Positions 37,422-52,805 of a DNA stretch of 64,000 nt are shown here, piece after piece. The stretch's first letter is position 1; each line of letters begins with the position of its first letter. The position numbers were made by a program, and so were the translations under genes. Origin of the DNA: Nitrospira lenta (lineage in GTDB: Bacteria > Nitrospirota > Nitrospiria > Nitrospirales > Nitrospiraceae); NCBI RefSeq assembly GCF_900403705.1, contig NZ_OUNR01000001.1, positions 186,001-250,000 of the forward strand, given 5' to 3'. The notes beneath the pieces were generated by a model. It saw nothing but the letters and a program-made list of their open reading frames with translations. It did not search any database and was not told the DNA's origin.

Positions 37422-38180
37422 CTAGCGCCGAGCTATTCTGGCGAGACGGTCTGGATTCAGTAAGGTGATGGTGCGTCCATCGATGGTGAGCAACGCCTCA
37501 TCCCGGAACAGGCCGAGCAGGCGGATGGCGGTTTCAACCGTGATCCCGGCCATCTCAGCCACTTCTTCCCGTTTGAGCGTCAGTCCAACCCGGACATGAT
37601 CGTCGTCTTTTTTGCCGAACCGATCGCCGAGCTCCAGCAGCAGGCCGGCCAATCGCTCGCGAGCCGTCTTGAATGTGAACTGATCGAGATGATCCATATT
37701 GACCCCGACCTCATGACTGAGGAGTTGAATCAGTTTGATCGCCAGTTGAGGATTTCTATGGATGACCGCAAGGTAGCGTTCTTTGTCGATGACGCAAACT
37801 TGCGAGGGTTCCAATGTCTCACACGTCACTTCATGGAGCGCACGCTCCCCAAAGACATGTTTCTCGATCAGCTCACCAGGGCCCAAGATCCGGACGATCT
37901 GCCGCTGGCCTCGCGCCGAAGAACGAGTCAGCTTGACCTTGCCCGCGCACAACAAATAGAGGCCCAAACATGCATGGCCTTCATAGAAGACGGTCTGGTG
38001 AGGCGCGTAGTCGAGGGTGCGTTTGATTGTCTGGAATTCGGCGAGGTCGCTGCCTTTGAGATCGCACAACACGACCTTCGCGCGAAGCGCGCAGGTGTCG
38101 CACCGCTCAATGGAACAGGGTTTCCGTTTCACGATGTGCCGATCATTCAGAGCGAGAAGAACTTTGGCCGGCATCGACAT
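37422..38180 (-). CDS. Crp/Fnr-family regulator with FNR-like cysteines
   Basis: Counting from a TTG at 38192, which gives the open frame of 256 residues, the first ATG is 38180 (MSMPAKVLL); I report that start, but see the hairpin entry. In that frame the N-terminus has Cys26, Cys31, Cys34 and Cys43, and Cys133 sits in SQVCVIDKERY, aligning with E. coli FNR Cys122 (MVCEIP). This suggests an FNR-type [4Fe-4S] oxygen sensor. The cNMP-type domain is followed by the HTH with GITVETAIRLLG, where the Glu and Arg of the FNR recognition helix are kept but Ser is Ile. It follows the SUMF1 gene by 53 bp and may share its transcript. Confidence 0.85.
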   Translation of the reverse strand: MSMPAKVLLALNDRHIVKRKPCSIERCDTCALRAKVVLCDLKGSDLAEFQTIKRTLDYAPHQTVFYEGHACLGLYLLCAGKVKLTRSSARGQRQIVRILGPGELIEKHVFGERALHEVTCETLEPSQVCVIDKERYLAVIHRNPQLAIKLIQLLSHEVGVNMDHLDQFTFKTARERLAGLLLELGDRFGKKDDDHVRVGLTLKREEVAEMAGITVETAIRLLGLFRDEALLTIDGRTITLLNPDRLARIARR

Positions 38181-38194
38181 GATGCCGGCCAAAG
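38162..38194 (-). promoter_or_regulatory. 14-bp inverted repeat enclosing the start codon of the FNR-type gene
   Basis: CTTTGGCCGGCATC (38162-38175) and its exact complement (38181-38194) flank the five bases ATGTC on the minus strand. In the mRNA this is a 14-bp GC-rich hairpin whose loop contains the candidate AUG (38178-38180). A GGAG at 38196-38199 sits just outside the stem. It could hide the start codon or be an operator dyad bound by the dimeric regulator. The TTG start at 38192 lies in the stem. Confidence 0.6.
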
Positions 38195-40219: not shown

Positions 40220-41152
40220 TTAGTGATCCTGCTTATGAACCAGCGGATCGATTTCTTTCTTGGCTTCCTCGGTCACGTTGTAGCGCGTATACGCATGGTC
40301 CAACACTTCATTGGCATAGAGCCGGCCCGTCGGAGCCGGGACGGAAATCGCAGCCTCCACGGTCCCCTTCGGGCTCACCGTCACGGTCTGCTCGGTTGTC
40401 GTGCGAACGTAGGGATGCCAGACCACCAGCTTATAGGTACCGGGCGGCACATCGGTCAGGGTAAACCGGCCCTGCTCGTCCGTCTTGGCAAAGTACGGAT
40501 TCGTAATGGCCAAGCCCCAACTTTCCATATAGGCGTGGAACCCGCATTGCATCACGAAAATGCGGCGGTTCTTGCTGAGATTGACCAACTGCTTCATCGG
40601 CGGCCCCGCCATATGTTTGTGATACATCCCAGCTTCGGTGCGATCCTTAAAATTGCGAGGATGTTGCGAATTCATCGGCAGGGGCACATTGAAGAGGACA
40701 CGCGCGCCTAAATTCGAGGTTTCATAGGCCTGAATGTCGTGCATGACCGGGTCCATGTTGACGACGGTCACTGACTGATCGTCCCGCACGACGGTGGTGA
40801 ACGGCAGAAACAGACAGTCTCGCGCCTCGATCTGCGGCACTGTCTTTTCCTCGAACGGTTTGCCCTTCTCAATTCCTTCCAGATAGACCACCACATCGCG
40901 GAACTCGCCGTCGGACCCGACCTGGAACGGCTGGAGAATCCGCCAGCCTTGTCCGTCCGAAATACGCCCACAATAGAAGGGGTCGGGCAGCGTCGTCAGG
41001 TTGTAGCCTTTCGGCTTGGGAACTGCGCCATCGAGCTTCACGGTCCCCGTGATGGTCCCGCCATCGGAGACCGTGGCTTCTTCATAGGCCAACGCCGGAC
41101 TGCCCACCGCCAGCGCCAATATTCCCGCAATCAGTTGTGTTTTGATCGTCAT
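40220..41152 (-). CDS. Cupredoxin-like / carboxypeptidase-regulatory-like periplasmic protein
   Basis: The 310-residue protein has a signal peptide (MTIKTQLIAGILALAVGSPALA). A Cu-site-like set is visible: His in NMDPVMHDIQAYE and the C-x2-H-x2-M motif in MQCGFHAYMESW, matching type 1 copper ligand order (His ... Cys, His, Met). A carboxypeptidase-regulatory-like beta domain follows (GRFTLTDVPPGTYKLVVWHP), and the rest is extracytoplasmic. It may deliver or receive electrons to the multicopper oxidase encoded just upstream. Copper binding is inferred from motif only. Confidence 0.7.
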   Translation of the reverse strand: MTIKTQLIAGILALAVGSPALAYEEATVSDGGTITGTVKLDGAVPKPKGYNLTTLPDPFYCGRISDGQGWRILQPFQVGSDGEFRDVVVYLEGIEKGKPFEEKTVPQIEARDCLFLPFTTVVRDDQSVTVVNMDPVMHDIQAYETSNLGARVLFNVPLPMNSQHPRNFKDRTEAGMYHKHMAGPPMKQLVNLSKNRRIFVMQCGFHAYMESWGLAITNPYFAKTDEQGRFTLTDVPPGTYKLVVWHPYVRTTTEQTVTVSPKGTVEAAISVPAPTGRLYANEVLDHAYTRYNVTEEAKKEIDPLVHKQDH

Positions 41153-41330: not shown

Positions 41331-44300
41331 TTACTTCATTGCGGTCGGAATGGCTTTCACTGCGGGCTCCGCTTCCGCCTGCTTGGCGCCCATACCGGCT
41401 GCGCCGAGCGGTTGGATCCGTGAATCGCCAGTCGGCAAGACACGGAGGTAGCCCCACTGTCCGGACTGCGTGTACGGCAGCCGCGCGTTGGACCAGACGA
41501 AGTCACCCACCTGACGATACGGTCCGCCCGCACCGCCACGGATAAACACGTCCAGCACTTCCGACCCGGCATACTCTACAACGCTGATCATGTCGGCACC
41601 CGGCATATACGGCTCGATGGGCCACTCATGGCCTTCGACGCCGAACATTCCGTTCTGCTCGCTGTTCGCACCGATGACATGGATGCGAATCGCGTCGCCC
41701 GCATGCGCCTCGATCAGAGGCGTGACGGGATCCTCGGGCTTATCCACCGCACAGGGCTGGAAAATCTTCCCGAGCGAGCAGCCTTGCTCTTCACGGAACT
41801 TGTACGGTTCGGCGCGGTAGTTCACCGACGTCAAACCGGCGACGTTCTGCACATAGGGCATGAACGCGGTTCCGATGATGTTGTCTTCATCCTGGAAGAA
41901 CAGAGCGACATCGCGATAGTTCCGCCTGCCTGCATTCTCAGACAAGCTGGTATCGACGATGACGTCCGCACGCCAGCTATTCTTCTCCGAGACATCGGCG
42001 CCGGTGACCGGATCGCGGTACTGCGATCCCTTCGGACCGACGACAATGGCACCGTACAATCCGTTACGCGGATTGACGACGATGTTCCCACCATCCCACA
42101 CCAGCGACGTCGTTTCCTTGTTCGCCGGATGCGCATAGTAGGTGTAGCCCCGGCTTTCGCCCGGACCGATGGTCTGCTCGCCGCTGTTGTTGCCGACGTT
42201 CAGCCCCTGGCTGTCTCTCGGATCGAAGGCCAATCCCGGCGCAAAGAACGACGCCCGGCTTGCCTTCATCTTGTTCTTCAGATTCACCTTGATGCAATCA
42301 CCAAGGTTGACGCGCAGCGTCAGCGGATTCGGGGTGACCCCGCTGGCGACCGTCGTGGCTTCGGATTCGAGCGCGAAGATCTTGCCTTCCGGCATGGTCA
42401 TTTCAATCTTCCGCTCGAAGTCCACCTCAATCGCATCCGGTGCCTTCGGATGGAGCTTCATCGGGCGATCCAACGCCACGACATTGAAGTTCTTCACCGG
42501 AGCATCAGCCGGACAGACCGAGCTGGGAGTGGCTGGAATCCCGAGGGGATTGGTCCCCCTGGGAAGCGGCTTCAGATCCGCGGTTTCCTTATCCAGCACG
42601 CGCACGATGCCCCATCCGCCTTCGGCGAAGTGTGACGTTCTGCCGTTGAAGTGGATGTAGTCACCGGGCATGCCTTGGAATCCGCCCGCCTTGGTCACGA
42701 GGTCATACCGCTCGGCGATCCCGACGTGAATCGAGTTCTTCCGGTTGGCATCCGCCGCATACCGTTCCGTGAGGAAGGTGTGGCCGGCGATCGTCCAGAC
42801 GTGCGATTCGTTCATCAGCTGGTGCAACAGGCGGAACACCATGGTGTCGCCCGTGTACGCCCGCAGGAGCGGTGTACCCGGATCCCCATGGATCGCGCTG
42901 CTGAACAGCTTCGACGTATCGGGATTGTTCGAGAGACGTTGTGCAAACGGAGCCGCGCGGAAATTGAAACCGCTGCCGGTCGTATGCGTCCCGCCGTTGA
43001 TGTACTTGTTCGGTGCGTTCATGATCTTATCGGGCATCTGGAACGACACCGTCTTGCCTGCTTCCAACGCCACTTCGATCGGCTGTCCCGGAGGATTGCC
43101 GGCTTCGATGACGTTGACCGTGTGGGGCACCGTGTCGTGGATGGAGACCATCAACTCACGGAAGCTGCCGCTCACACCGGCACCGATCGGCTCATTGCTA
43201 TGGATGTCCGCCACCGGACCGCTCCACACCAGCTTGCCGTTCTTCGGATCGTGATAGGTGGACCCGAACGGCTCCACGATCGTCACGCCGAACCCGCCAT
43301 GTGGCCAGGTCGTTGCGCCGAACGCGTGGTCATGCCAGAACACGGTCCCCATATCCACGTCCACCCACCACCGATACCGCACGAACTCCGGCGACACGAG
43401 GTCGTTCGCCGGGTGGTTGTTCTTCAACGGCTTGAAGAAGGTCACCTGATCGCCCTTGATCTCCTTGATCCGGGCGACTTCGGAGCAGCTCTTATCCCGC
43501 GGCAGTGACGCCGTCGGATCGTTGCCCTTCTCTAAGCAATCCATGCCCACCATGACTTCCGTGTTCACATGGAAGGCCGTGGCGCCAGGGGCCAGCTGAA
43601 TCTTGATGGAGCTGGCTCCGGCTTTGGCTCCGCCGATGATCTTGGCGACCATCGGAGCGGGCAATCCGTGCTTCGTCTTCTTCCCCCACATCGTGAAGGG
43701 GCGCACGGACATTTCATACTCCATCCCGGAGATGACTCCGTCCGAGTTCCCTGTATCGAACTGGAAGAAGTGGGGATGGATGTTGATCTTCGACGACTGG
43801 AAATTCGTGTAGTCGTCATCGTCCCACTCGCTGGTGAGGACCAAGTCCACGCAGTCATACACGTTGGCGCGAATGACCGCCGGAAGCTTGAGATCGTCGT
43901 TGGCTCTGGTCAACCGCTCTTCTTCGTGGAGCAGATAGATCAGACCGTCTTTATCCACCATGGCCGGCTCTTTCCCCTGCTTCTTGGCCAGGGTGATCGG
44001 CATGCGGACAAAGTGAATGTTATAGAACTTCCGGTTCGCATTGACCGGGCAGAGACTCCAACGTCCCTGCTCGCCGGGCTGGGCCGGCTCGGAAGTCCGC
44101 TCACCGTTGGCATCCTGGTGGATCGGCTCCAGCCAGGGGGCGCCACTATGGTTCGCAGAGAAGGGCACGCGCTTGCCGAAGTGCGGTTTGAACAGCGGCC
44201 AGGCCATCTTGCCCGTGGTCGGGTCAAAGAGAATAGCCGGTCTGGTGCTGTCATCCCACTTGGCGGCCCATGGATACTTGGGGTTCGCCGCAGTGCTCTC

Positions 44301-46271
44301 GCGCTCGCCCCGAGCGATGTTGCCATCCCACTTCCAGTCCCACACCGTCGAGTCATAGGCCATGATCTGGCCCTTCTCGTCATTGGTGTGGCCTGGTTGA
44401 CCCTGAGCCGGCACGAACATTTCGACCCAATCCTTGACGTTCACGATCACCGGATCGGACTTCCAGTTCGTCTTCTGGCTCTTGTCGACAATCTTGAAGG
44501 TCTTGCCGAACCAGTCGAGGGTCGAACCGATCAATTTGTCCGACGAGACACCCTGCCGCATGCGGCCCTGACGATCAGGCAACTCACGCATATCCGGCAT
44601 CGTGTCGGTATGCGCCGCACCAACTTGGAGGGTGTTGTAGAACCGGCCGTACCCCCACATGCCCGCGACGTAGTGATGCGCCACATGGCAGTGATAGAGG
44701 AATTCGCCAGCCAAATGCTGACAGCCGCCGCCGCCGCACTCCGGCTCCAGGTCGAGCGCTTCGGACGGACCGACGACTTCCACGTCCACCCGATCGGATT
44801 TGGTCCGAACGACCGGATACTTCACCGGACCGTCCTGACCTTTATACCAATGCTCTTCCTGATCGGAACGCGGGCTGCGCTGCCAGCGGATCGTTCCGCT
44901 ATGGGGATGGTGGGAGTGGAACACTTCCGATCCACCGTGCACCAACCGCCACTTGACCGGGTCACCCAGGTAACCGCGAGCCACCGTGGTGGGAGGATCG
45001 CCGAAGGTGTACGCACTGTACGCCATCGACTCGTCCTCGAACCCGAAATACTCATGCTGCAAATGCATCTGATCGATGCCGAACGGCTCGCTGCGATAGT
45101 TGATCGCGCGGCCACCCGGACGATAGGCGTCTGTCAACGGATCGCGCTGCGGCAAGAAGTCACCCTTCTTGTTCAGCGGACGGAACGCTTCGTCGCCGAT
45201 TTCGTGATAGAAGAGCACGAATTCGCGGAAGTCCGGTCCCGAGCCGTTATCGATCATGACCTGCCATCCGCCATTCGTGTCGGGCGCCGCGCCCGTACCG
45301 AGCGGATCGAGGTACTTAGAACCCTTCGGTTCGACGATGAAGGCGCCGAACAGGCCCAACACCGTCAACTCGCGGTCATGGCTCCATGAATGGAACTGCC
45401 GCACACCTTCCTGCATGCCGGGGTTGATATACCATTCGAAGTCCTGCGTCTTACCCGGTGAGACGACCGTATCAGGATTCGTGGTGGTCGCAGGCTTTCC
45501 GGTGGCGCTCACAATCATGCTGGAAGCCTGAATGACTAAGCTGCCATCCTCGCCTTCCATCTGATTCCGCAGCGTCATCTTGACGCAATCGCCCTGGTTG
45601 GCGCGGAGCACCAACGGCTGAATCGCATCGCCCTGATTTCCGGTCGTCACTGCGCCCGGATCAAAACCGTCCTTCTCGCGAGCGGCTTTGTTCTTAGACT
45701 CTTCGGCCCGGACTTTGTCGATGTCGCCCGTGTGGACGTACATGTACCCTGGATAGAAGTCGAGCCAGCGATTCAAGCTGATCTCGATGTTGATCATCGA
45801 GACGTCGTACTTCTTGACCGGAGCATTGGCCGGACACTTCCCGCCGGACGCGATGACCGGCTCGCCCTTGCCGGAATCCGTCATGAGTAGGAAGCTGCTG
45901 CCGTCCTGCCCCATGTACTGGTGCATCATCGACATCTCGTTGAACGCACCGGAGGTCGGGGTTGCCTGCGCGTCTTTCTTCGCCTGGTCCCCCAGCTTCT
46001 CCATCAAGCGATGGTGCTGCATCTCCATCTTCTCTGCATTGCCGGCACGACCCTCCATGGCGTTTTCCACCACGGTCTGGCCTTTGAGCTGTTGCGTCCA
46101 ACCCGGCATCGCGACCGGAGTCGCGTGACCGTCATGCGACGGTTCGCCAGGTCCTGCGGCAAACAGCCATGGTGTTGCCACCAGGCTGCCTGTCAGCAAC
46201 ACGCTGTGCAGCATCAACGACAGGCGGCTACGCCGCCGTTGACGCTGAGATTGAAGTTGAAAAACCCTCAT
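41331..46271 (-). CDS. Giant multicopper oxidase (1646 aa)
   Basis: The protein has 1646 residues, far longer than the ~500-600 of three-domain laccases. An N-terminal signal (LMLHSVLLTGSLVATPWLFAA) indicates export. Cupredoxin repeats run throughout. Copper-type motifs include HSWSHD (~292), HSHHPHSG (~450) and a complete T1/T3-like HCHVAHHYVAGMWG (~527-540) in the N half. The middle has NIHPHFFQF (~828) and FWHDHAFGATTWPHG (~975). SHVWTIAGH (~1153) and HFNGRTSHF (~1205) are in the third quarter, and VEGHEWPIE is near 1543. The size and internal duplication resemble manganese-oxidising MnxG-type oxidases, but substrate is not determinable here. It is preceded by a sigma-54-like promoter and followed by a terminator. 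Confidence 0.85.
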   Translation of the reverse strand: MRVFQLQSQRQRRRSRLSLMLHSVLLTGSLVATPWLFAAGPGEPSHDGHATPVAMPGWTQQLKGQTVVENAMEGRAGNAEKMEMQHHRLMEKLGDQAKKDAQATPTSGAFNEMSMMHQYMGQDGSSFLLMTDSGKGEPVIASGGKCPANAPVKKYDVSMINIEISLNRWLDFYPGYMYVHTGDIDKVRAEESKNKAAREKDGFDPGAVTTGNQGDAIQPLVLRANQGDCVKMTLRNQMEGEDGSLVIQASSMIVSATGKPATTTNPDTVVSPGKTQDFEWYINPGMQEGVRQFHSWSHDRELTVLGLFGAFIVEPKGSKYLDPLGTGAAPDTNGGWQVMIDNGSGPDFREFVLFYHEIGDEAFRPLNKKGDFLPQRDPLTDAYRPGGRAINYRSEPFGIDQMHLQHEYFGFEDESMAYSAYTFGDPPTTVARGYLGDPVKWRLVHGGSEVFHSHHPHSGTIRWQRSPRSDQEEHWYKGQDGPVKYPVVRTKSDRVDVEVVGPSEALDLEPECGGGGCQHLAGEFLYHCHVAHHYVAGMWGYGRFYNTLQVGAAHTDTMPDMRELPDRQGRMRQGVSSDKLIGSTLDWFGKTFKIVDKSQKTNWKSDPVIVNVKDWVEMFVPAQGQPGHTNDEKGQIMAYDSTVWDWKWDGNIARGERESTAANPKYPWAAKWDDSTRPAILFDPTTGKMAWPLFKPHFGKRVPFSANHSGAPWLEPIHQDANGERTSEPAQPGEQGRWSLCPVNANRKFYNIHFVRMPITLAKKQGKEPAMVDKDGLIYLLHEEERLTRANDDLKLPAVIRANVYDCVDLVLTSEWDDDDYTNFQSSKINIHPHFFQFDTGNSDGVISGMEYEMSVRPFTMWGKKTKHGLPAPMVAKIIGGAKAGASSIKIQLAPGATAFHVNTEVMVGMDCLEKGNDPTASLPRDKSCSEVARIKEIKGDQVTFFKPLKNNHPANDLVSPEFVRYRWWVDVDMGTVFWHDHAFGATTWPHGGFGVTIVEPFGSTYHDPKNGKLVWSGPVADIHSNEPIGAGVSGSFRELMVSIHDTVPHTVNVIEAGNPPGQPIEVALEAGKTVSFQMPDKIMNAPNKYINGGTHTTGSGFNFRAAPFAQRLSNNPDTSKLFSSAIHGDPGTPLLRAYTGDTMVFRLLHQLMNESHVWTIAGHTFLTERYAADANRKNSIHVGIAERYDLVTKAGGFQGMPGDYIHFNGRTSHFAEGGWGIVRVLDKETADLKPLPRGTNPLGIPATPSSVCPADAPVKNFNVVALDRPMKLHPKAPDAIEVDFERKIEMTMPEGKIFALESEATTVASGVTPNPLTLRVNLGDCIKVNLKNKMKASRASFFAPGLAFDPRDSQGLNVGNNSGEQTIGPGESRGYTYYAHPANKETTSLVWDGGNIVVNPRNGLYGAIVVGPKGSQYRDPVTGADVSEKNSWRADVIVDTSLSENAGRRNYRDVALFFQDEDNIIGTAFMPYVQNVAGLTSVNYRAEPYKFREEQGCSLGKIFQPCAVDKPEDPVTPLIEAHAGDAIRIHVIGANSEQNGMFGVEGHEWPIEPYMPGADMISVVEYAGSEVLDVFIRGGAGGPYRQVGDFVWSNARLPYTQSGQWGYLRVLPTGDSRIQPLGAAGMGAKQAEAEPAVKAIPTAMK

Positions 46272-46380
46272 ACACGGCCTCCCCCTGTTATGACCGCCCC
46301 TACCATGGGCGGACGGTTAAAACACACCGACAACGAATGCCCTTCGTCCGTGTTCCGCGTACCTTTTTTCAAAAAGCACC

Positions 46381-46497
46381 GGCCTCCGACTCTACCCGGC
46401 CTCTCCACTGGAGGAATTTAGAGCTGGTGAAGGATCCTTCTTACGAAGGAATGGGTCATTCGGAGGCCGGTCCAAAATTACCCAGACCTTCACCAGC
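46381..46497 (-). promoter_or_regulatory. Leader with interleaved complementary arms
   Basis: Arm A pairs GGCCTCCGA (46381-46389) with TCGGAGGCC (46460-46468); arm B pairs GCTGGTGAAGG (46423-46433) with CCTTCACCAGC (46487-46497). The order A1, B1, A2, B2 is interleaved, so they form either a pseudoknot or two alternative folds. A local hairpin TCCTTC-TTAC-GAAGGA (46435-46450) lies between. Near-complete complementarity suggests a regulatory leader of the oxidase message. Confidence 0.45.
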
Positions 46498-46510
46498 GAG
46501 ACTTTCTATC

Positions 46511-46527
46511 CGCAAGCGCTATGCCTA
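46511..46527 (-). promoter_or_regulatory. Candidate sigma-54 promoter of the multicopper oxidase gene
   Basis: The minus strand reads TAGGCATAGCGCTTGCG: GG (-24) and GC (-12) are exactly ten bases apart and the -12 box is TTGC; the -24 box (AGGCA against TGGCA) is one mismatch. It would start transcription near 46500, giving a ~230-base leader. A sigma-54 activator gene lies just upstream. Confidence 0.45.
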
Positions 46528-46685
46528 ACTCGATACACTTTCAGCATATTTTCGATTTTCCAGTCCTGGAGCGGCTCCGCTGCCCTTCATTCATTCCTCA
46601 GCACAGGACCCTCGAATGGCGTGATTCCACAGCCATAGACAGTCCCCTACGTCTCTAACTTTTGAATCCTGTATTTTCATGTAGT

Positions 46686-46713
46686 TGCACTGTCTAGCCG
46701 TCTAGACAGTGCA
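46686..46713. promoter_or_regulatory. 12-bp perfect inverted repeat, candidate activator site
   Basis: TGCACTGTCTAG and its exact complement are separated by CCGT. It lies 36 bp after the stop of the PAS/sigma-54 activator gene and about 160-190 bp upstream of the sigma-54-like promoter, the usual place for an enhancer-binding-protein site. There is no U-tract for a terminator, which favours an operator. Confidence 0.55.
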
Positions 46714-46749: not shown

Positions 46750-48144
46750 TTATTGGAGGCCGTACTCTCGCAACTTATTGTAGAGACCAGCTCGGCTGAT
46801 CTTGAGTAGCTTGGCTGCCCGGAGTCGATTGCCACCGGTCTTTCTCAAGGCTTCGACGATGCGCGTCCGTTCTGTGAGACTGACTGCATCCCGGACGACC
46901 ATTCTCAGCCCTTCCTCCGGTGCCTTCGATCTCAATGCCACGATATCTCCGCAGGCCAGCTCCGGGCCCGTTGTCGTGACAACGGCCCGCTCAATGTAAT
47001 GCTGCAGCTCACGAACATTCCCCGGCCACGCAACCTCACTGAGCGCCTGCATGACATCGGGCGAAACCGTTCTCGGCGCCTGCCGATGCCGTTTACAAGA
47101 CGCCACGACAAAATGATCGACAAGCAAGGCAATGTCGTCTCGCCGCTCTCGAAGCGGGGGCAGAAACAGCGGCAGAACGGCCAGACGGTAATAGAGATCC
47201 TGCCGAAATGCCTTGGCCTTCACCAACTCACTCAAATCCTTGTTGGTGGCCGACACTACACGCACCTCAACTTTGATCGGCTGGTTTCCTCCCACCCGCT
47301 TGACCTCTCCTTCCTGCAACACCCGCAACAGTTTGGCCTGGAAGGTCGGCGTCGTATCGGCGATTTCATCCAGGAAGATCGTCCCGCCGTCGGCCTCTTC
47401 GAATAAACCCCGCTTGTTGGCCGTCGCACCGGTAAACGATCCCTTCATATGGCCGAACAACTCACTCTCCAACAACGTCTCCGGAAGCGATCCGCAATCG
47501 ACCACTACGAACGGCTTATCCCGCCGATCACTGAGGCGATGAATCGTTTTGGCGACCAATTCCTTACCTGTACCGCTTTCGCCCTGGATCAGGACCGTGG
47601 CCTGACTCTCTGCGACTAGGACAATCATGTCGAACAGCTGCTGCATGGCCGCGCTGCGACCGATGAGATCGCCCAAATGCTCTCGTACCGTCAGAGCGGG
47701 AAGATCGTTTGAGACCGGCAATGCCGTGCGAAGGGTCGTCTGAGAAAGGGGGTTAAACAACACCAGCATGGACGTGACCTGCCCGTCACCGGCGGCCAAC
47801 GGAAATGCTTGGCGCATCCCACAGGCCGTTCCATCGCCTTCCGTCCCGCACGAAATAGACTGGACGTCCGGCGTTTCAAACACTTTTGTCGCCGGGCAGG
47901 CGCCGCAGGGATCGGTCCGCTGCGCAAACGCCTGATAGCACTTCGCCTGATGCGCATCCGCGTCACCGGGCTCACGATTCGTCCACGCCGACGAATTCGC
48001 ATAGACAATATTGAACTCGCGATCCACTACCGCCACGCGATCGGATATCCCACCTGCCAGCTGCCGAATCGCTTCGACCCTCGCGACAAGAATAGGATCA
48101 CTGAACGATGGAACCGCGCACACCTCTGGCTGAGATCCGGCCAT
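46750..48144 (-). CDS. PAS-containing sigma-54-dependent activator
   Basis: The 464-residue protein has an N-terminal PAS-like domain (~20-120) with Cys69, Cys80, Cys83, Cys99 and Cys108; the arrangement CY...PCGACP is a possible redox or metal-sensing site. An AAA+ domain follows with Walker A GESGTGKE and the sigma-54 loop GSFTGA, and a Fis-type HTH ends it ([25 protein letters not shown]). It has no receiver domain, so it responds to its own signal. It is directly upstream of the multicopper oxidase regulatory spacer on the same strand. Confidence 0.88.
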
Positions 48145-48204: not shown

Positions 48205-48591
48205 CTAGAACACCTGCTGACTCCCGGCCCCGAGCAGTTGCTTCACGCAGGACCTCAGCTCTGCCAGATGCACCGGCTTGCTGAAATACCTCGTCGCACC
48301 GGCTCGAAACACCTTCGCCTTCACCTGTTCATCGCCGAATGCTGTCATGACGACGATAGGGCAATGCGGGACGATCGCTCTGAGACGATTGATATAGTCG
48401 ACCCCGCCAGCAGCCAAATGAATCTCCGTCAGAATCAAGTCCGGCACCGCCCGGAGGATCACATGACACGCCTCCTCCCCGTCTCCGGCTTCCCGAAGGA
48501 CATACCCTTCGCTCCACAAACCGTCACGAAGAAGGCTGCGCATCTCTCCGTCATCGTCCACCACCAGTACAGTCGGCTTACCCTCTCCCAC
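48205..48591 (-). CDS. Stand-alone response-regulator receiver protein
   Basis: The 128-residue protein is one CheY-like receiver: VLVVDDDGEM acidic pair, LILTEIHLAAGG at the phosphorylation-site region, where the usual Asp position reads TEIH, and VMTAFGDE with the Thr, KPVH with the Lys. The usual phospho-acceptor Asp is apparently Glu, which may make it constitutively active-like or pseudo. It has no output domain. It lies between the histidine kinase and the PAS activator, 60 bp upstream of the latter. Confidence 0.8.
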   Translation of the reverse strand: MGEGKPTVLVVDDDGEMRSLLRDGLWSEGYVLREAGDGEEACHVILRAVPDLILTEIHLAAGGVDYINRLRAIVPHCPIVVMTAFGDEQVKAKVFRAGATRYFSKPVHLAELRSCVKQLLGAGSQQVF

Positions 48592-48822
48592 GAGGACACC
48601 TTCCTTAACAGTTTTTTGTCACCGCACAGTCGTTCGTCTTGGGGGAAGTCGCAAGGACAATGCCATTGCGCCAACTCGCAGCCACAGACGAATCAGGCTA
48701 TTTTAGAGGGCATTCGCGACGAACGATTTGCCCGCGATCGCAGGCTGAAGAGAAACACCCCAACATACGTACATTCGGCTGTTGCAAGATGCCCCAACCA
48801 AGGCGAGAGGTGACGGCACGCA

Positions 48823-51108
48823 CTATCCGCTTTTCGGCAAGAGAATCGTAAACGTGGTGCCCTGACCTTCCTGGCTTTCAGCGACAATCGAACCGTGATG
48901 CTCTTCAATAATCCCTTTCACCACCGTAAGCCCTAACCCCGTTCCCTTGCCAAACTCTTTGGTCGTAAAGAACGGGGTAAACACTTTGGCGATCACCGCC
49001 TGAGGAATCCCGTGGCCAGTATCCGCCACAGTGAGCTTGACCATATCGTCAGCCGGGACCATCCCGATACGGAGTTGCCCGCCGTCCGGCATTGCGTGAA
49101 TGGCATTCATGATGAGATTGATGAGTACCTGATTCATTTGATCAGCATCCGCCTGCACTCTGGGACAGGCCTCATCCAGCTGCATCTCGACCTGCACCCG
49201 GCTTTTCACAAGCCGCTCCTGAAACATTTCGACGCTGTTTTCGATGACATCCCGCAAGAACAACGGGCCGCGCTCAGACGGTTTGCGCCGAGCAAAGGCC
49301 AGGAGCTGATTCATGACGCGCGTAATGCGTTCCACCTGCGCCACAATCGTTTGCAAACCCCTCTTGACCGTCTCATCCGTCACGCGATCCATCAGGTATT
49401 CCGCGCGGCCTAGAATGACATTCATGGGCGTCCCAATCTCATGCGCCATCCCGGAGGCGACCGTTCCGAGCTCCGCGATGCGCTCGGTCTTGCGTAGCCG
49501 CTCCTGCAGCCGTTTCCGTTCACTGATATCGCGCAGCATCGCCAAAATCGCCGGCCCCTCTTCGTCGGAAAATCCGGCCGAGCTGACCTCGACATCCATC
49601 GGCGTGCCGTCCTGCTTGACGATGCGCTCCTCAACCATCGGAGTCACCTGGCTGCCACCGAGCAGCGCATGGGCCCGCTCGCGCATCGCGTCATGGCATT
49701 CCGGATGAAAGAGTTCGAAAGGCGATCTCCCGACGATTTCCTCGGCCTTCACCGCGCCGAACAGTTTCAGCGCCTGATCGTTGGCAAAAATGATCCGATC
49801 GGCCCGGACCACAAGGATGCCATAGGGCGACACCGCAACCAGACGCCGATAGCGCTCTTCGCTCTGCCGGATCAGATGCTCCACCCTCTTACGAGCGGTC
49901 ACATCCTGCGTGGTCCCGACCACACGAGTCACCCGAAAACCCTGTCCGGCTCCGTCGAAAAACGCCTGTGCCCGCACCACCATCCAGCGCACTTCCCCGT
50001 CGGGATACTGCATCCGGTACTCCGACGTAAACCGGGCATCCGGCGCGTCCGGCCGATGCGTCGACGTCATCAACTCCTGCAAGGCATGAGCGTCATCGGG
50101 ATGCACGCAGGCGATCATCGTTCCGAGCGACACGCCGGTCCCACACCGATAGATCGCCTGGGCCCGGGCATCCAGCTGCACCAGACCTGTCGCCACATCA
50201 TGCTCCCACGCCCCGAGCTGGCCGGCTTCAAGGGCCAGCCGGGATCGTTCTTCGATTCCCCGCAACTGCTCTTCGGCCCGCAGCCGCTCCGCAATGTCTC
50301 GGAGAATGACGGTATAGAGCGTCTTACCTTCCACGACGATATGGGAAATCGCCGCTTCGACCGGAAACTCTTCGCCGTTCGCGCGAAGCCCCATCACCTT
50401 CCCGAGTTGCCCCATTTTCCGGCTCGTCACGCGAGATCGTCCGAACTCCTCCACATGATGCCGATGGGCATCTCTAAATCGCGCGGGCAGAAACTTGTCT
50501 ACCGATTGACCAATCGCTTCACGGGCAGGGCACTGAAACATCCGCTCAGCGGCCTCGTTGAATAACAGAACCTGCATCCGTTCATCGCTGGTGATAATGG
50601 CGTCCATGGCAGACTGGACAATTCCGTCCAATCGAAGACTGCTGAGCAGGAGTTCTCGGGCGGCTTGGGACTCGCGGTGAATCGCGCCGGTCGCACTGGC
50701 TTCCGCCAGCTCACGCGCCGCCACCGCCGCTTTGCGGCCAGCCTCTGCCTGTGCTTGCGCGGCCCGGGCGCCGACGAGCTGACTCTGCACCTGCCTCTGC
50801 CGAACAATGATCCAGGTGACCCCCCACATGATCATCAGGCCGAACGCACGATTCATCAACGCCACCGCCGGGTGAATGTCGCGCGGCGAGAAGTACCCAC
50901 CCAGGGCGGTCAACAGGGTGACCGCCGCGACAAAATTGTAGGCGTCACGATCCCGAAGCGATTGCAGGGTCATCACGAGAGGAATGAAATACAACAGCCA
51001 GTCCGCCCATCCCAACGGGGTCAGGAGATCCAGACCAAAGATCGAGAGAGTGAGCAGGAGAATAGCCCCTGCTTTCAGGCGAGTGGAGGTGTCGAGTGGC
51101 GGGCTCAC
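48823..51108 (-). CDS. Membrane PAS histidine kinase
   Basis: The 761-residue protein starts at GTG 51108 (MSPPLDTSTR). It has three to four N-terminal helices, a coiled linker, three PAS/PAC units (~160-280, ~290-400, ~415-530), the HisKA H-box MAHEIGTPMNVILGRAEYL and a HATPase_c domain with DTGHGIPQ and GTGLGLTVVKGI. The likely partner is the NtrC-type regulator 36 bp upstream, and perhaps the receiver downstream. Confidence 0.9.
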   Translation of the reverse strand: MSPPLDTSTRLKAGAILLLTLSIFGLDLLTPLGWADWLLYFIPLVMTLQSLRDRDAYNFVAAVTLLTALGGYFSPRDIHPAVALMNRAFGLMIMWGVTWIIVRQRQVQSQLVGARAAQAQAEAGRKAAVAARELAEASATGAIHRESQAARELLLSSLRLDGIVQSAMDAIITSDERMQVLLFNEAAERMFQCPAREAIGQSVDKFLPARFRDAHRHHVEEFGRSRVTSRKMGQLGKVMGLRANGEEFPVEAAISHIVVEGKTLYTVILRDIAERLRAEEQLRGIEERSRLALEAGQLGAWEHDVATGLVQLDARAQAIYRCGTGVSLGTMIACVHPDDAHALQELMTSTHRPDAPDARFTSEYRMQYPDGEVRWMVVRAQAFFDGAGQGFRVTRVVGTTQDVTARKRVEHLIRQSEERYRRLVAVSPYGILVVRADRIIFANDQALKLFGAVKAEEIVGRSPFELFHPECHDAMRERAHALLGGSQVTPMVEERIVKQDGTPMDVEVSSAGFSDEEGPAILAMLRDISERKRLQERLRKTERIAELGTVASGMAHEIGTPMNVILGRAEYLMDRVTDETVKRGLQTIVAQVERITRVMNQLLAFARRKPSERGPLFLRDVIENSVEMFQERLVKSRVQVEMQLDEACPRVQADADQMNQVLINLIMNAIHAMPDGGQLRIGMVPADDMVKLTVADTGHGIPQAVIAKVFTPFFTTKEFGKGTGLGLTVVKGIIEEHHGSIVAESQEGQGTTFTILLPKSG

Positions 51109-51144
51109 GAGGGCCTTGGACCGGCGTGCATGGTGAACGACAGT

Positions 51145-52521
51145 CTACTCGTGAGTCTTCGCTTCTTCAATCTCACCGAGCTTGCGGTAGAGGGTCTTCC
51201 GGTCGATGCCCAACGCCTGCGCAGCCTGGTACTTGTTCCCGCCGGTTTTATCGAGAATCTTCTTGATGTACTCCTGCTCGATCTCATGCAGCGGCAGCAT
51301 CTTTTCCGCGGCTTCGTCGAGCACCCGCCGGTCCCCGCGAGCGCCCTGCACCGCCAGCGGCAGGTCGTCCGGCGCAATCTTCTCACCGCGATGGAGCGTC
51401 ACGGCCCGCTCCACCACATTTTCCAGCTCTCGCACATTGCCCGGCCAGCTGTAGTCCATCAACATCGCCAGAGCCGATTCACTGACCCCCTTCACTTCTT
51501 TGTGCCGAACCTCCGCACATTTCTTGAGAAAGGCTTCCACTAGGATGGGAATATCCTCCCGGCGATCCCGCAACGGCGGCAACACGACTTCAATGACATT
51601 GAGTCGATAGAACAAGTCATCACGAAACCGCTTTGCCTTCACCTCCTCCGCAAGATGCAGATTGGTGGCGGCAATGATGCGGACATCCACCGCGATCGGC
51701 TTATTGGCGCCGACTCGGCGGATTTCCTTTTCCTGAATGGCGCGCAGGATTTTCGCCTGGAGCATAATCGGCAACTCGCTGATTTCATCGAGAAAGAGCG
51801 TGCCCTTTTGCGCCTCCTCGAACAGCCCGCGCTTGTCCGACTTCGCGTCGGTGAAGGCCCCGCGCATGTGACCGAAGAGCTCGCTTTCCAACAACTGTTC
51901 GGGAATCGCGGCGCAGTTCACCGGAACGAACGGCGCATCCTTGCGATCGCTGTTGTAATGAATGGCCTTCGCCACCAGTTCTTTTCCCGTTCCACTCTCC
52001 CCGGTGATCAACACATTGGTCGGACTATCCGCGACGCGGCGGATCAGATCGAACACCGCCTGAATCGCTTTGCTCTTTCCGAGAATGTGATGAAAGCTGT
52101 ATTCCTTGTGCACTTCTTTCCGCAGCCGGCTTACCTCGCGCCGAAGAGCGGATTCCCGCACGGCGCGTTCCACCACACGAATAATCTCCTCCGTCTTCAC
52201 CGGCTTCGTGAGGTAATCGCTCGCGCCTCGCTTCATCGCTTCCACGGCGGTTTCGACGGACCCGAACGCGGTCATGAGGATGACGCCGATATCGGGATAC
52301 AGCCGTTTGATCTCGAGCAACAATTCTGTCCCCAACATCCCCTTCATTCTCAAATCGGTGAGCACAACGGCAAAATCTTCTCCGGCCAAGAGCTTCAGCG
52401 CCTCCTGCCCGCTTCCCGCCGTCGCAATCTGATGGCCGCGATCCTTGAGTACATCAAAGACCAACTCGCGCATCTCGGCATCATCATCGACGACCAGCAC
52501 TGCGCCCCATTCTTCCGTCAT
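51145..52521 (-). CDS. NtrC-family sigma-54 response regulator
   Basis: ATG 52521 (MTEEWGAVLVVDD) is preceded by AAGGAGTCGAGC; the longer frame has no family signature. The 458-residue protein has a receiver (VVLTDLRMKG with the phospho-Asp), AAA+ domain with GESGTGKE and a sigma-54 loop GAFTDA (GAFTGA variant), and a Fis HTH (NKYQAAQALGIDRKTLYRKLGEI). It pairs with the PAS histidine kinase 36 bp downstream. Confidence 0.92.
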   Translation of the reverse strand: MTEEWGAVLVVDDDAEMRELVFDVLKDRGHQIATAGSGQEALKLLAGEDFAVVLTDLRMKGMLGTELLLEIKRLYPDIGVILMTAFGSVETAVEAMKRGASDYLTKPVKTEEIIRVVERAVRESALRREVSRLRKEVHKEYSFHHILGKSKAIQAVFDLIRRVADSPTNVLITGESGTGKELVAKAIHYNSDRKDAPFVPVNCAAIPEQLLESELFGHMRGAFTDAKSDKRGLFEEAQKGTLFLDEISELPIMLQAKILRAIQEKEIRRVGANKPIAVDVRIIAATNLHLAEEVKAKRFRDDLFYRLNVIEVVLPPLRDRREDIPILVEAFLKKCAEVRHKEVKGVSESALAMLMDYSWPGNVRELENVVERAVTLHRGEKIAPDDLPLAVQGARGDRRVLDEAAEKMLPLHEIEQEYIKKILDKTGGNKYQAAQALGIDRKTLYRKLGEIEEAKTHE

Positions 52522-52805
52522 GCTCGACTCCTTCTTGTCGTCATCACTGAGACAGCCTAATCCTGCCGTCGCGTTCGCTTCAAGCCACAAATGCCCCCAA
52601 AGGCCACACTGCAACCGCTCCCCATTGAGGGGAAATGCCACAGTGACACCCTATTTAAAGGGACTAAGACAAACTCAGCTCTGTCTTAAGCAAAGCCGGG
52701 ACCAATCGAAGCGCATTCAAGAAAGGAGAGATACGCGGACGCCATCGGAGCCGTCAGACCTCGAAGAAATCCACACGGGCTCTATTTGAATTGAGGAAAG
52801 TGATT
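52522..52805. other. 284-bp spacer before the response regulator
   Basis: It carries the promoter region of the regulator-kinase operon. A 7-bp inverted repeat, TAAGACA (52665-52671) and TGTCTTA (52682-52688) with 10-bp spacer, lies about 145 bp upstream of the start and could be an operator, but the match is short. The 3' side ends at the tRNA-Ala gene. Confidence 0.4.

Follow-up and report, generated by a model that had tools for sequence, protein, structure and literature searches.

Antisense hairpins that target Shine-Dalgarno (SD) sequences are known from Staphylococcus aureus RNAIII and similar RNAs, leader or riboswitch RNAs can act in trans, as exemplified by SreA of Listeria, and Qrr and GlmY/GlmZ are small RNAs driven by sigma-54. 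Nitrospirales rank among the major nitrifiers. Whether their giant MnxG-like oxidases serve in Mn oxidation or in defence against reactive oxygen species (ROS) is unsettled. For the multicopper oxidase (MCO) of Nitrospina and Nitrospira, ROS defence or Mn oxidation has been proposed (PMC3578206; PMC12070406), and the accessible parts of these two articles describe neither the regulation of the enzyme nor a leader RNA. In Pseudomonas putida, IHF-sigma-54 promoters are predicted for mnxG and mcoA, which require Mn and have a dedicated regulatory system, MnxS1/S2-MnxR (PMC11930936).

Here, we analysed a window of 64,000 nucleotides from Nitrospira lenta (the whole stretch of DNA under study) that contains an operon headed by such an oxidase gene. 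We consider it moderately probable that a sigma-54-driven leader RNA uses an antisense hairpin loop, termed L2, to control MCO translation in cis and probably also in trans. The operon comprises the following genes:

41331-46271, minus strand: MCO1, a 1646-residue MnxG-like multicopper oxidase
40220-41152, minus strand: P310, with a CarboxypepD_reg domain and the SD GGAGGCCGG, complementary to L2
38234-39196, minus strand: FGE2, formylglycine-generating-enzyme-like, with the SD GGAGGCCG, complementary to L2

MCO1 is homologous to MnxG (9bxa; E = 1.3e-84) and evidently belongs to the same enzyme family as the putative Mn-oxidising MCO of Nitrospina and Nitrospira (PMC3578206; PMC12070406). It is not an assigned MnxG equivalog, its match to the NCBIfam equivalog model NF041487 (E = 7e-31) reaching 106 bits against a cutoff of 3100. 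Between MCO1 and P310 (41262-41300, minus strand), a terminator-like GC-rich hairpin is followed by TTGTGTTTT and then by GGGGAGGCTGAG, another motif resembling the complement of L2. A regulator-like gene, labelled CRP-like by reading alone, lies after FGE2 (37422-38192, minus strand), and some relatives (L274, L278) also have a homolog of it close to where the operon ends.

Upstream of MCO1, the control region is made up of an activator gene, two upstream activator sites (UAS) and a promoter element:

46750-48144, minus strand: sigma-54-dependent activator gene, encoding an AAA+ domain, a Fis-type HTH and a cysteine-rich, PAS_4-like N-terminus
46686-46713, minus strand: UAS1, a perfect dyad with 12 bp per arm, predicted activator site
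46624-46641, minus strand: UAS2, TGTCTATGGCTGTGGAAT, an asymmetric and weaker second site, 67 bp downstream of UAS1
46512-46525, minus strand: sigma-54 -24/-12 element, GGCATAGCGCTTGC, GG-N10-GC

The activator matches the Pfam families Sigma54_activat (1.7e-71) and HTH_8 (4e-11) and contains the sequence GSFTGA, thus combining an AAA+ domain bearing a GAFTGA-like motif with a C-terminal HTH, as is characteristic of enhancer-binding proteins. A first-pass annotation of this DNA had spoken of a PAS activator; its domains are those of a sigma-54 activator, and the PAS part comes down to a weak PAS_4 match that falls below the cutoff (E = 0.008). Inside this match lies a cysteine cluster (a stretch of 16 residues followed by two spaced cysteines), which may sense metals or redox state. 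The activator gene is itself immediately preceded by genes for an isolated receiver domain, a histidine kinase with a PAS domain and an NtrC-type regulator (48205-52641, minus strand).

The UAS1 dyad reads TGCACTGTCTAG-N4-CTAGACAGTGCA and has the core TGTCTA-N6-TAGACA (46691-46708). It found no match in 100 shuffles with three mismatches allowed, and a genome-wide motif scan identified a single occurrence of the core, written as TGTCYA-N6-TRGACA, in the organism's own 3.76-Mb genome. All 31 close copies of the locus contain the core near -230 from the L2 core with at most one substitution (shuffle expectation, 0.085), and UAS1 deviates by no more than two mismatches from the consensus in the 56 divergent copies of the sigma-54 type. 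Across most copies, the TGTCYA-N6-TRGACA dyad is situated about 180 bp upstream of the sigma-54 element, and most divergent copies show a UAS2 pattern, TGTCYA-N6-TRGAAN, about 66 bp further downstream. In the window, UAS1 is 161 bp away from the -24 element, a spacing within the 80-200 bp that would be expected of an upstream site for a bacterial enhancer-binding protein. The GG-N10-GC signature of a sigma-54 promoter, at 46525-46512, occupies a fixed, aligned position upstream in the 31 close copies, and elements of the GGCAY-N5-TTGC type are present in 56 of the 63 divergent copies, -27 to -29 from the first helix of the leader RNA (P1). Seven copies, which we refer to as subtype II, possess neither the sigma-54 element nor a UAS. 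Judging from the position of the element, the transcript is predicted to start near 46500, which would place about 230 nt of leader before the ATG at 46271.

Orthologs of the N-terminal domain of the activator are encoded just upstream of most divergent copies in most genera. Given this arrangement and the uniqueness of UAS1 in the genome, the activator looks dedicated to the MCO1 operon, and it is predicted to bind UAS1 and UAS2. The first-pass annotation had already named the 12-bp dyad, a promoter about 160 bp from it, a leader of roughly 230 bases and the geometry of a sigma-54 enhancer. All these elements are present in the sequence, and the enhancer and promoter interpretation is strongly supported by phylogenetic footprinting, with the dyad, the -24/-12 element and the adjacent activator kept across genera; UAS2 (46641-46624) had been overlooked.

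The leader that follows contains a structured RNA:

46423-46497, minus strand: three-way-junction RNA with helices P1, P2 (bearing the L2 loop) and P3, showing covariation
46497-46487 with 46433-46423, minus strand: P1 (arm A), 11 pairs
46451-46435, minus strand: P3
46471-46460 with 46389-46378, minus strand: arm B, formed by L2 and a downstream element, R2

The leader element as a whole (46497-46378) appears in the alignment as a sharply bounded conserved block that runs from the start of arm A to just past R2. A sequence search of relatives recovered it in 33 of 59 genomes, all from the same genus, and a covariance model built from the 31 close copies detected it in 112 of 396 Nitrospirota genomes, spanning 19 genera, and in 73 of the 79 genomes of its own genus. 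For the divergent set, 60 loci were fetched, in which the model gave 64 forward matches; one of these (L135) lies inside an NtrC-like gene and was discarded as a false positive. An MnxG-like MCO is the next gene after the RNA in all 31 close copies and in 61 of the 62 divergent true matches. The sole exception, L119, reflects an automatic gene call that assigned a wrong start, with the expected SD, GGAGGCCGGCCGATG, lying further on. Among the close copies, the downstream gene is always the MCO, even at a protein identity of only about 48%, so that conservation is higher for the RNA than for the protein. Rfam contains no covariance model matching the leader at the gathering score or at E-values up to 10, and a literature search among open-licence papers retrieved no earlier description of this RNA. 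A loose DNA pattern scan of genome contigs yielded at least 80 loci, and the model confirmed three among the matches listed, all labelled Nitrospira/Nitrospirae; with chance matches across many phyla, the scan was too loose to serve as a family finder.

The organism's own genome has one more copy of the RNA, a divergent one of subtype II, before another MCO paralog (locus L132, G000:C18:87118-87227, minus strand). It begins with UCUGGUGAAGG, has CCGGCUUCC as its L2 and lacks a sigma-54 element, and its SD, GGAGGCUGG, can still pair with its own L2 via wobbles.

The copies from the same genus alone are too invariant for an analysis of covariation, and divergent copies were used for this purpose. 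In an alignment of 48 diverse copies made from sequence alone, P1-P3 display 108 double-change cells, compared with 27.7 in shuffles, and none of 500 shuffles reaches 108. Both sides have changed in nine of 11 pairs of P1, three of four of P2a and all five of P3, P1 is paired in 99% of the alignment cells, and RNAalifold predicts the same three-way junction. The RNA thus combines a conserved, compensated structure with a fixed place upstream of one gene family, as is typical of a structured cis-regulatory RNA.

The loop of P2 faces several complementary segments further downstream:

46462-46473, minus strand: L2, GGACCGGCCUCC, a nearly invariant antisense element
46396-46403, minus strand: R1 decoy, GAGGCCGG, complementary to L2, in nearly all own-genus copies
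46378-46389, minus strand: R2 decoy, UCGGAGGCCGGU, the 3' side of arm B, followed by U5
46275-46282, minus strand: MCO1 SD, GGAGGCCG, complementary to L2 over 8 nt

At least seven contiguous pairs between L2 and the MCO1 SD are possible in 86 of 89 copies, and CC follows GGAGG in 76 of the 89 MCO1 SDs, compared with five of 35 background families of other genes. Such extended complementarity above background would be expected of an antisense element directed at the SD. The SDs of two subtype-II copies (L126 and L112_11766) pair with L2 over only 5 nt. Since L2 is almost invariant, the putative L2:SD helix shows wobble-preserving changes but no true compensatory ones, and since the loop proper is a hexaloop (CCGGCC) closed by GGA/UCC, full pairing with the SD would need the stem to open. 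A significant decoy between the RNA and the SD (shuffle p <= 0.05) is present in 46 of 89 copies and is near-universal only in the genus of the window, so that L2-R2 was rejected as a general conserved pair. On these patterns, the conserved predicted partner of L2 is the SD and not R2.

These results also clarify the interleaving of arms A and B (in the order 5'A-5'B-3'A-3'B), which the first-pass annotation had interpreted as a sign of pseudoknot or two-state folding, to be checked through compensatory changes. For P1-P3, such changes exceed those in 500 of 500 shuffles, and P1 is supported as a helix. Arm B is not conserved in all genera, and L2-R2, conserved within the genus, is one of several possible loop pairings; that the loop is complementary to the SD of its own gene, and over 12 nt to the SD of a paralog, had escaped notice.

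The decoys are central to two other explanations. One is a purely cis-acting two-state leader, in which L2 would alternate between pairing with R1/R2 and pairing with the MCO1 SD, the balance would shift in response to temperature or to a metal or ligand, and the match to the paralog, MCO2, would be an ancestral residue. The combination of a three-way junction with a pseudoknot is a frequent riboswitch layout, R1 and R2 are conserved within the genus, and the L2:R2 duplex (-28.1 kcal/mol) is predicted to be more stable than L2:MCO1 SD (-20.3 kcal/mol; 16S:MCO1 SD, -11.0 kcal/mol). However, about half of the copies would have to work without a significant decoy, L2 fits the MCO2 SD (12 nt) better than the SD in cis (8 nt), and the MCO2 match persists in families whose upstream regions are otherwise unrelated. 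We regard this explanation as rather unlikely. The other, a transcription attenuator in which L2:R2 followed by U5 would terminate transcription with P1 as the alternative, would require a conserved hairpin with a U-run and was rejected as very improbable: although the window contains a 12-bp GC-rich helix followed by CTTTTT and a weak terminator match at 46390-46378, the U-run does not extend beyond the clade to which the window belongs, L2:R2 does not have the form of a short-loop hairpin, and about half of the copies have no significant decoy.

The complementarity of L2 extends beyond the MCO1 SD. The GGAGGCC-type sequence GGAGGCCG is carried not only by MCO1 but also by the SDs of P310 and FGE2, and an even longer match is found at MCO2, a leaderless paralog of about 67% identity whose promoter resembles the sigma-70 type:

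G000:C17:235755-240605 (locus L288, own genome), minus strand: MCO2, promoter TTGACAG...TATCGT, SD GGAGGCCGGTCC

In most genomes, a distant family included, GGAGGCCGGUCC forms the SD and spacer of MCO2 and is perfectly complementary to L2 over its full 12 bases. The variant GGAGGUCGGUCC retains 12 pairs, one of them G-U, and the variant GGGUCGGUUC retains 10. At least 10 contiguous nucleotides able to pair with L2 are found in 32 of 39 MCO2 upstream regions, compared with two of 102 other genes with a GGAGG-type SD, again as would be expected of an SD-targeting antisense element, and the L2:MCO2 SD duplex has a predicted energy of -31.1 kcal/mol. In the own genome, GGAGGCCGGTCC is the only such 15-mer with an ATG. 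The exact 15-mer GGAGGCCGGTCCATG occurs once each in 19 of 76 genomes of the genus, marking the MCO2 start wherever coordinates are comparable, and a reversed control pattern gave no matches. Beyond the order, where genomes have MCO homologs but not the RNA, the complete SD motif is missing from these homologs. The conservation of the RNA, the covariation of P1-P3, and the complementarity together with its retention across genera are directly supported. Against this background, it is hardly credible, and the least probable of the explanations considered, that the RNA serves in stabilising or processing the transcript at its 5' end and that its SD complementarity is coincidental: the start of the element, only a few nucleotides from where transcription is predicted to begin, would suit this role, but its loop rather than its stem is extremely conserved, and the enrichment at MCO2 over other genes speaks against coincidence.

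Three relatives in which the RNA was not detected (G042, G045 and G052) nevertheless keep the 12-nt SD at their MCO, and a leader search in G036, G039, G042, G045 and G052 returned only L2 matches that are the SD itself read on the opposite strand or that, as their neighbourhood indicates, probably lie in coding sequence. The SD motif may thus have another reader. A translational repressor protein could act on MCO1, P310, FGE2 and MCO2 by recognising GGAGGCC(G) at their SDs, with the decoys as extra sites and L2 limiting access, and the recurrence of the SD extension at several cistrons, also in genomes without a detected leader, would agree with this notion. Taken alone, however, such a protein would leave unexplained why L2 is the exact complement of the motif and nearly invariant and why the three-way junction covaries, and we consider it improbable. 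The trans step of our preferred reading, an antisense leader RNA, is backed by the longest match and weakened by these three genomes, and it probably applies.

In the mechanism that we propose, the dedicated activator would act on UAS1 and UAS2 to drive transcription from the -24/-12 element, and the transcript would start within a few bases of the three-way-junction RNA, whose hairpin P2 would display L2. We infer that L2 would then pair with MCO SDs and lower translation, in cis at MCO1 (8 bp) and probably at P310 and FGE2, and in trans at the SD of the leaderless, sigma-70-type MCO2 (12 bp), and that R1 and R2, where they exist, would compete for L2 and free the SD. It is tempting to go one step further and to picture a bifunctional leader that, besides its role in cis, would shut off MCO2 translation via its 12-nt loop, such that sigma-54-dependent induction of MCO1 would swap isozymes throughout the order; we offer this tentatively, as a serious possibility that falls somewhat short of being probable. 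In any case, the complementarity of L2 to the SDs of both MCO1 and MCO2 suggests a new RNA layer in the control of this oxidase family. The conserved activator site, promoter and RNA provide a direct handle on the signal that induces the oxidase and on the pairing of the loop. If the action in trans holds true, an mRNA leader would constitute an isozyme switch, and the RNA would be a new family that Rfam does not contain.

Compared with known systems, the locus resembles P. putida mnxG and mcoA in that MnxG-type genes are combined with predicted sigma-54 promoters and a dedicated regulatory system (PMC11930936), but it features a single adjoining activator with a cysteine-rich, PAS-like N-terminus, two UAS and a structured leader RNA. 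With respect to the proposed mechanism, RNAIII-type RNAs come closest, as they also present a C-rich hairpin loop complementary to target SDs; in our case, the putative antisense loop resides in the 5' leader of the target's paralog, and structure and phylum are unrelated. As in Listeria SreA, a 5' leader is proposed to act on another mRNA, whereas the leader described here is driven by sigma-54, has no known ligand and is predicted to pair at the SD of a paralog. Finally, Qrr and GlmY/GlmZ likewise link an enhancer-dependent promoter to a base-pairing RNA, with the pairing being predicted in our case, but the RNA of Nitrospira is an mRNA leader and has no counterpart in Rfam.
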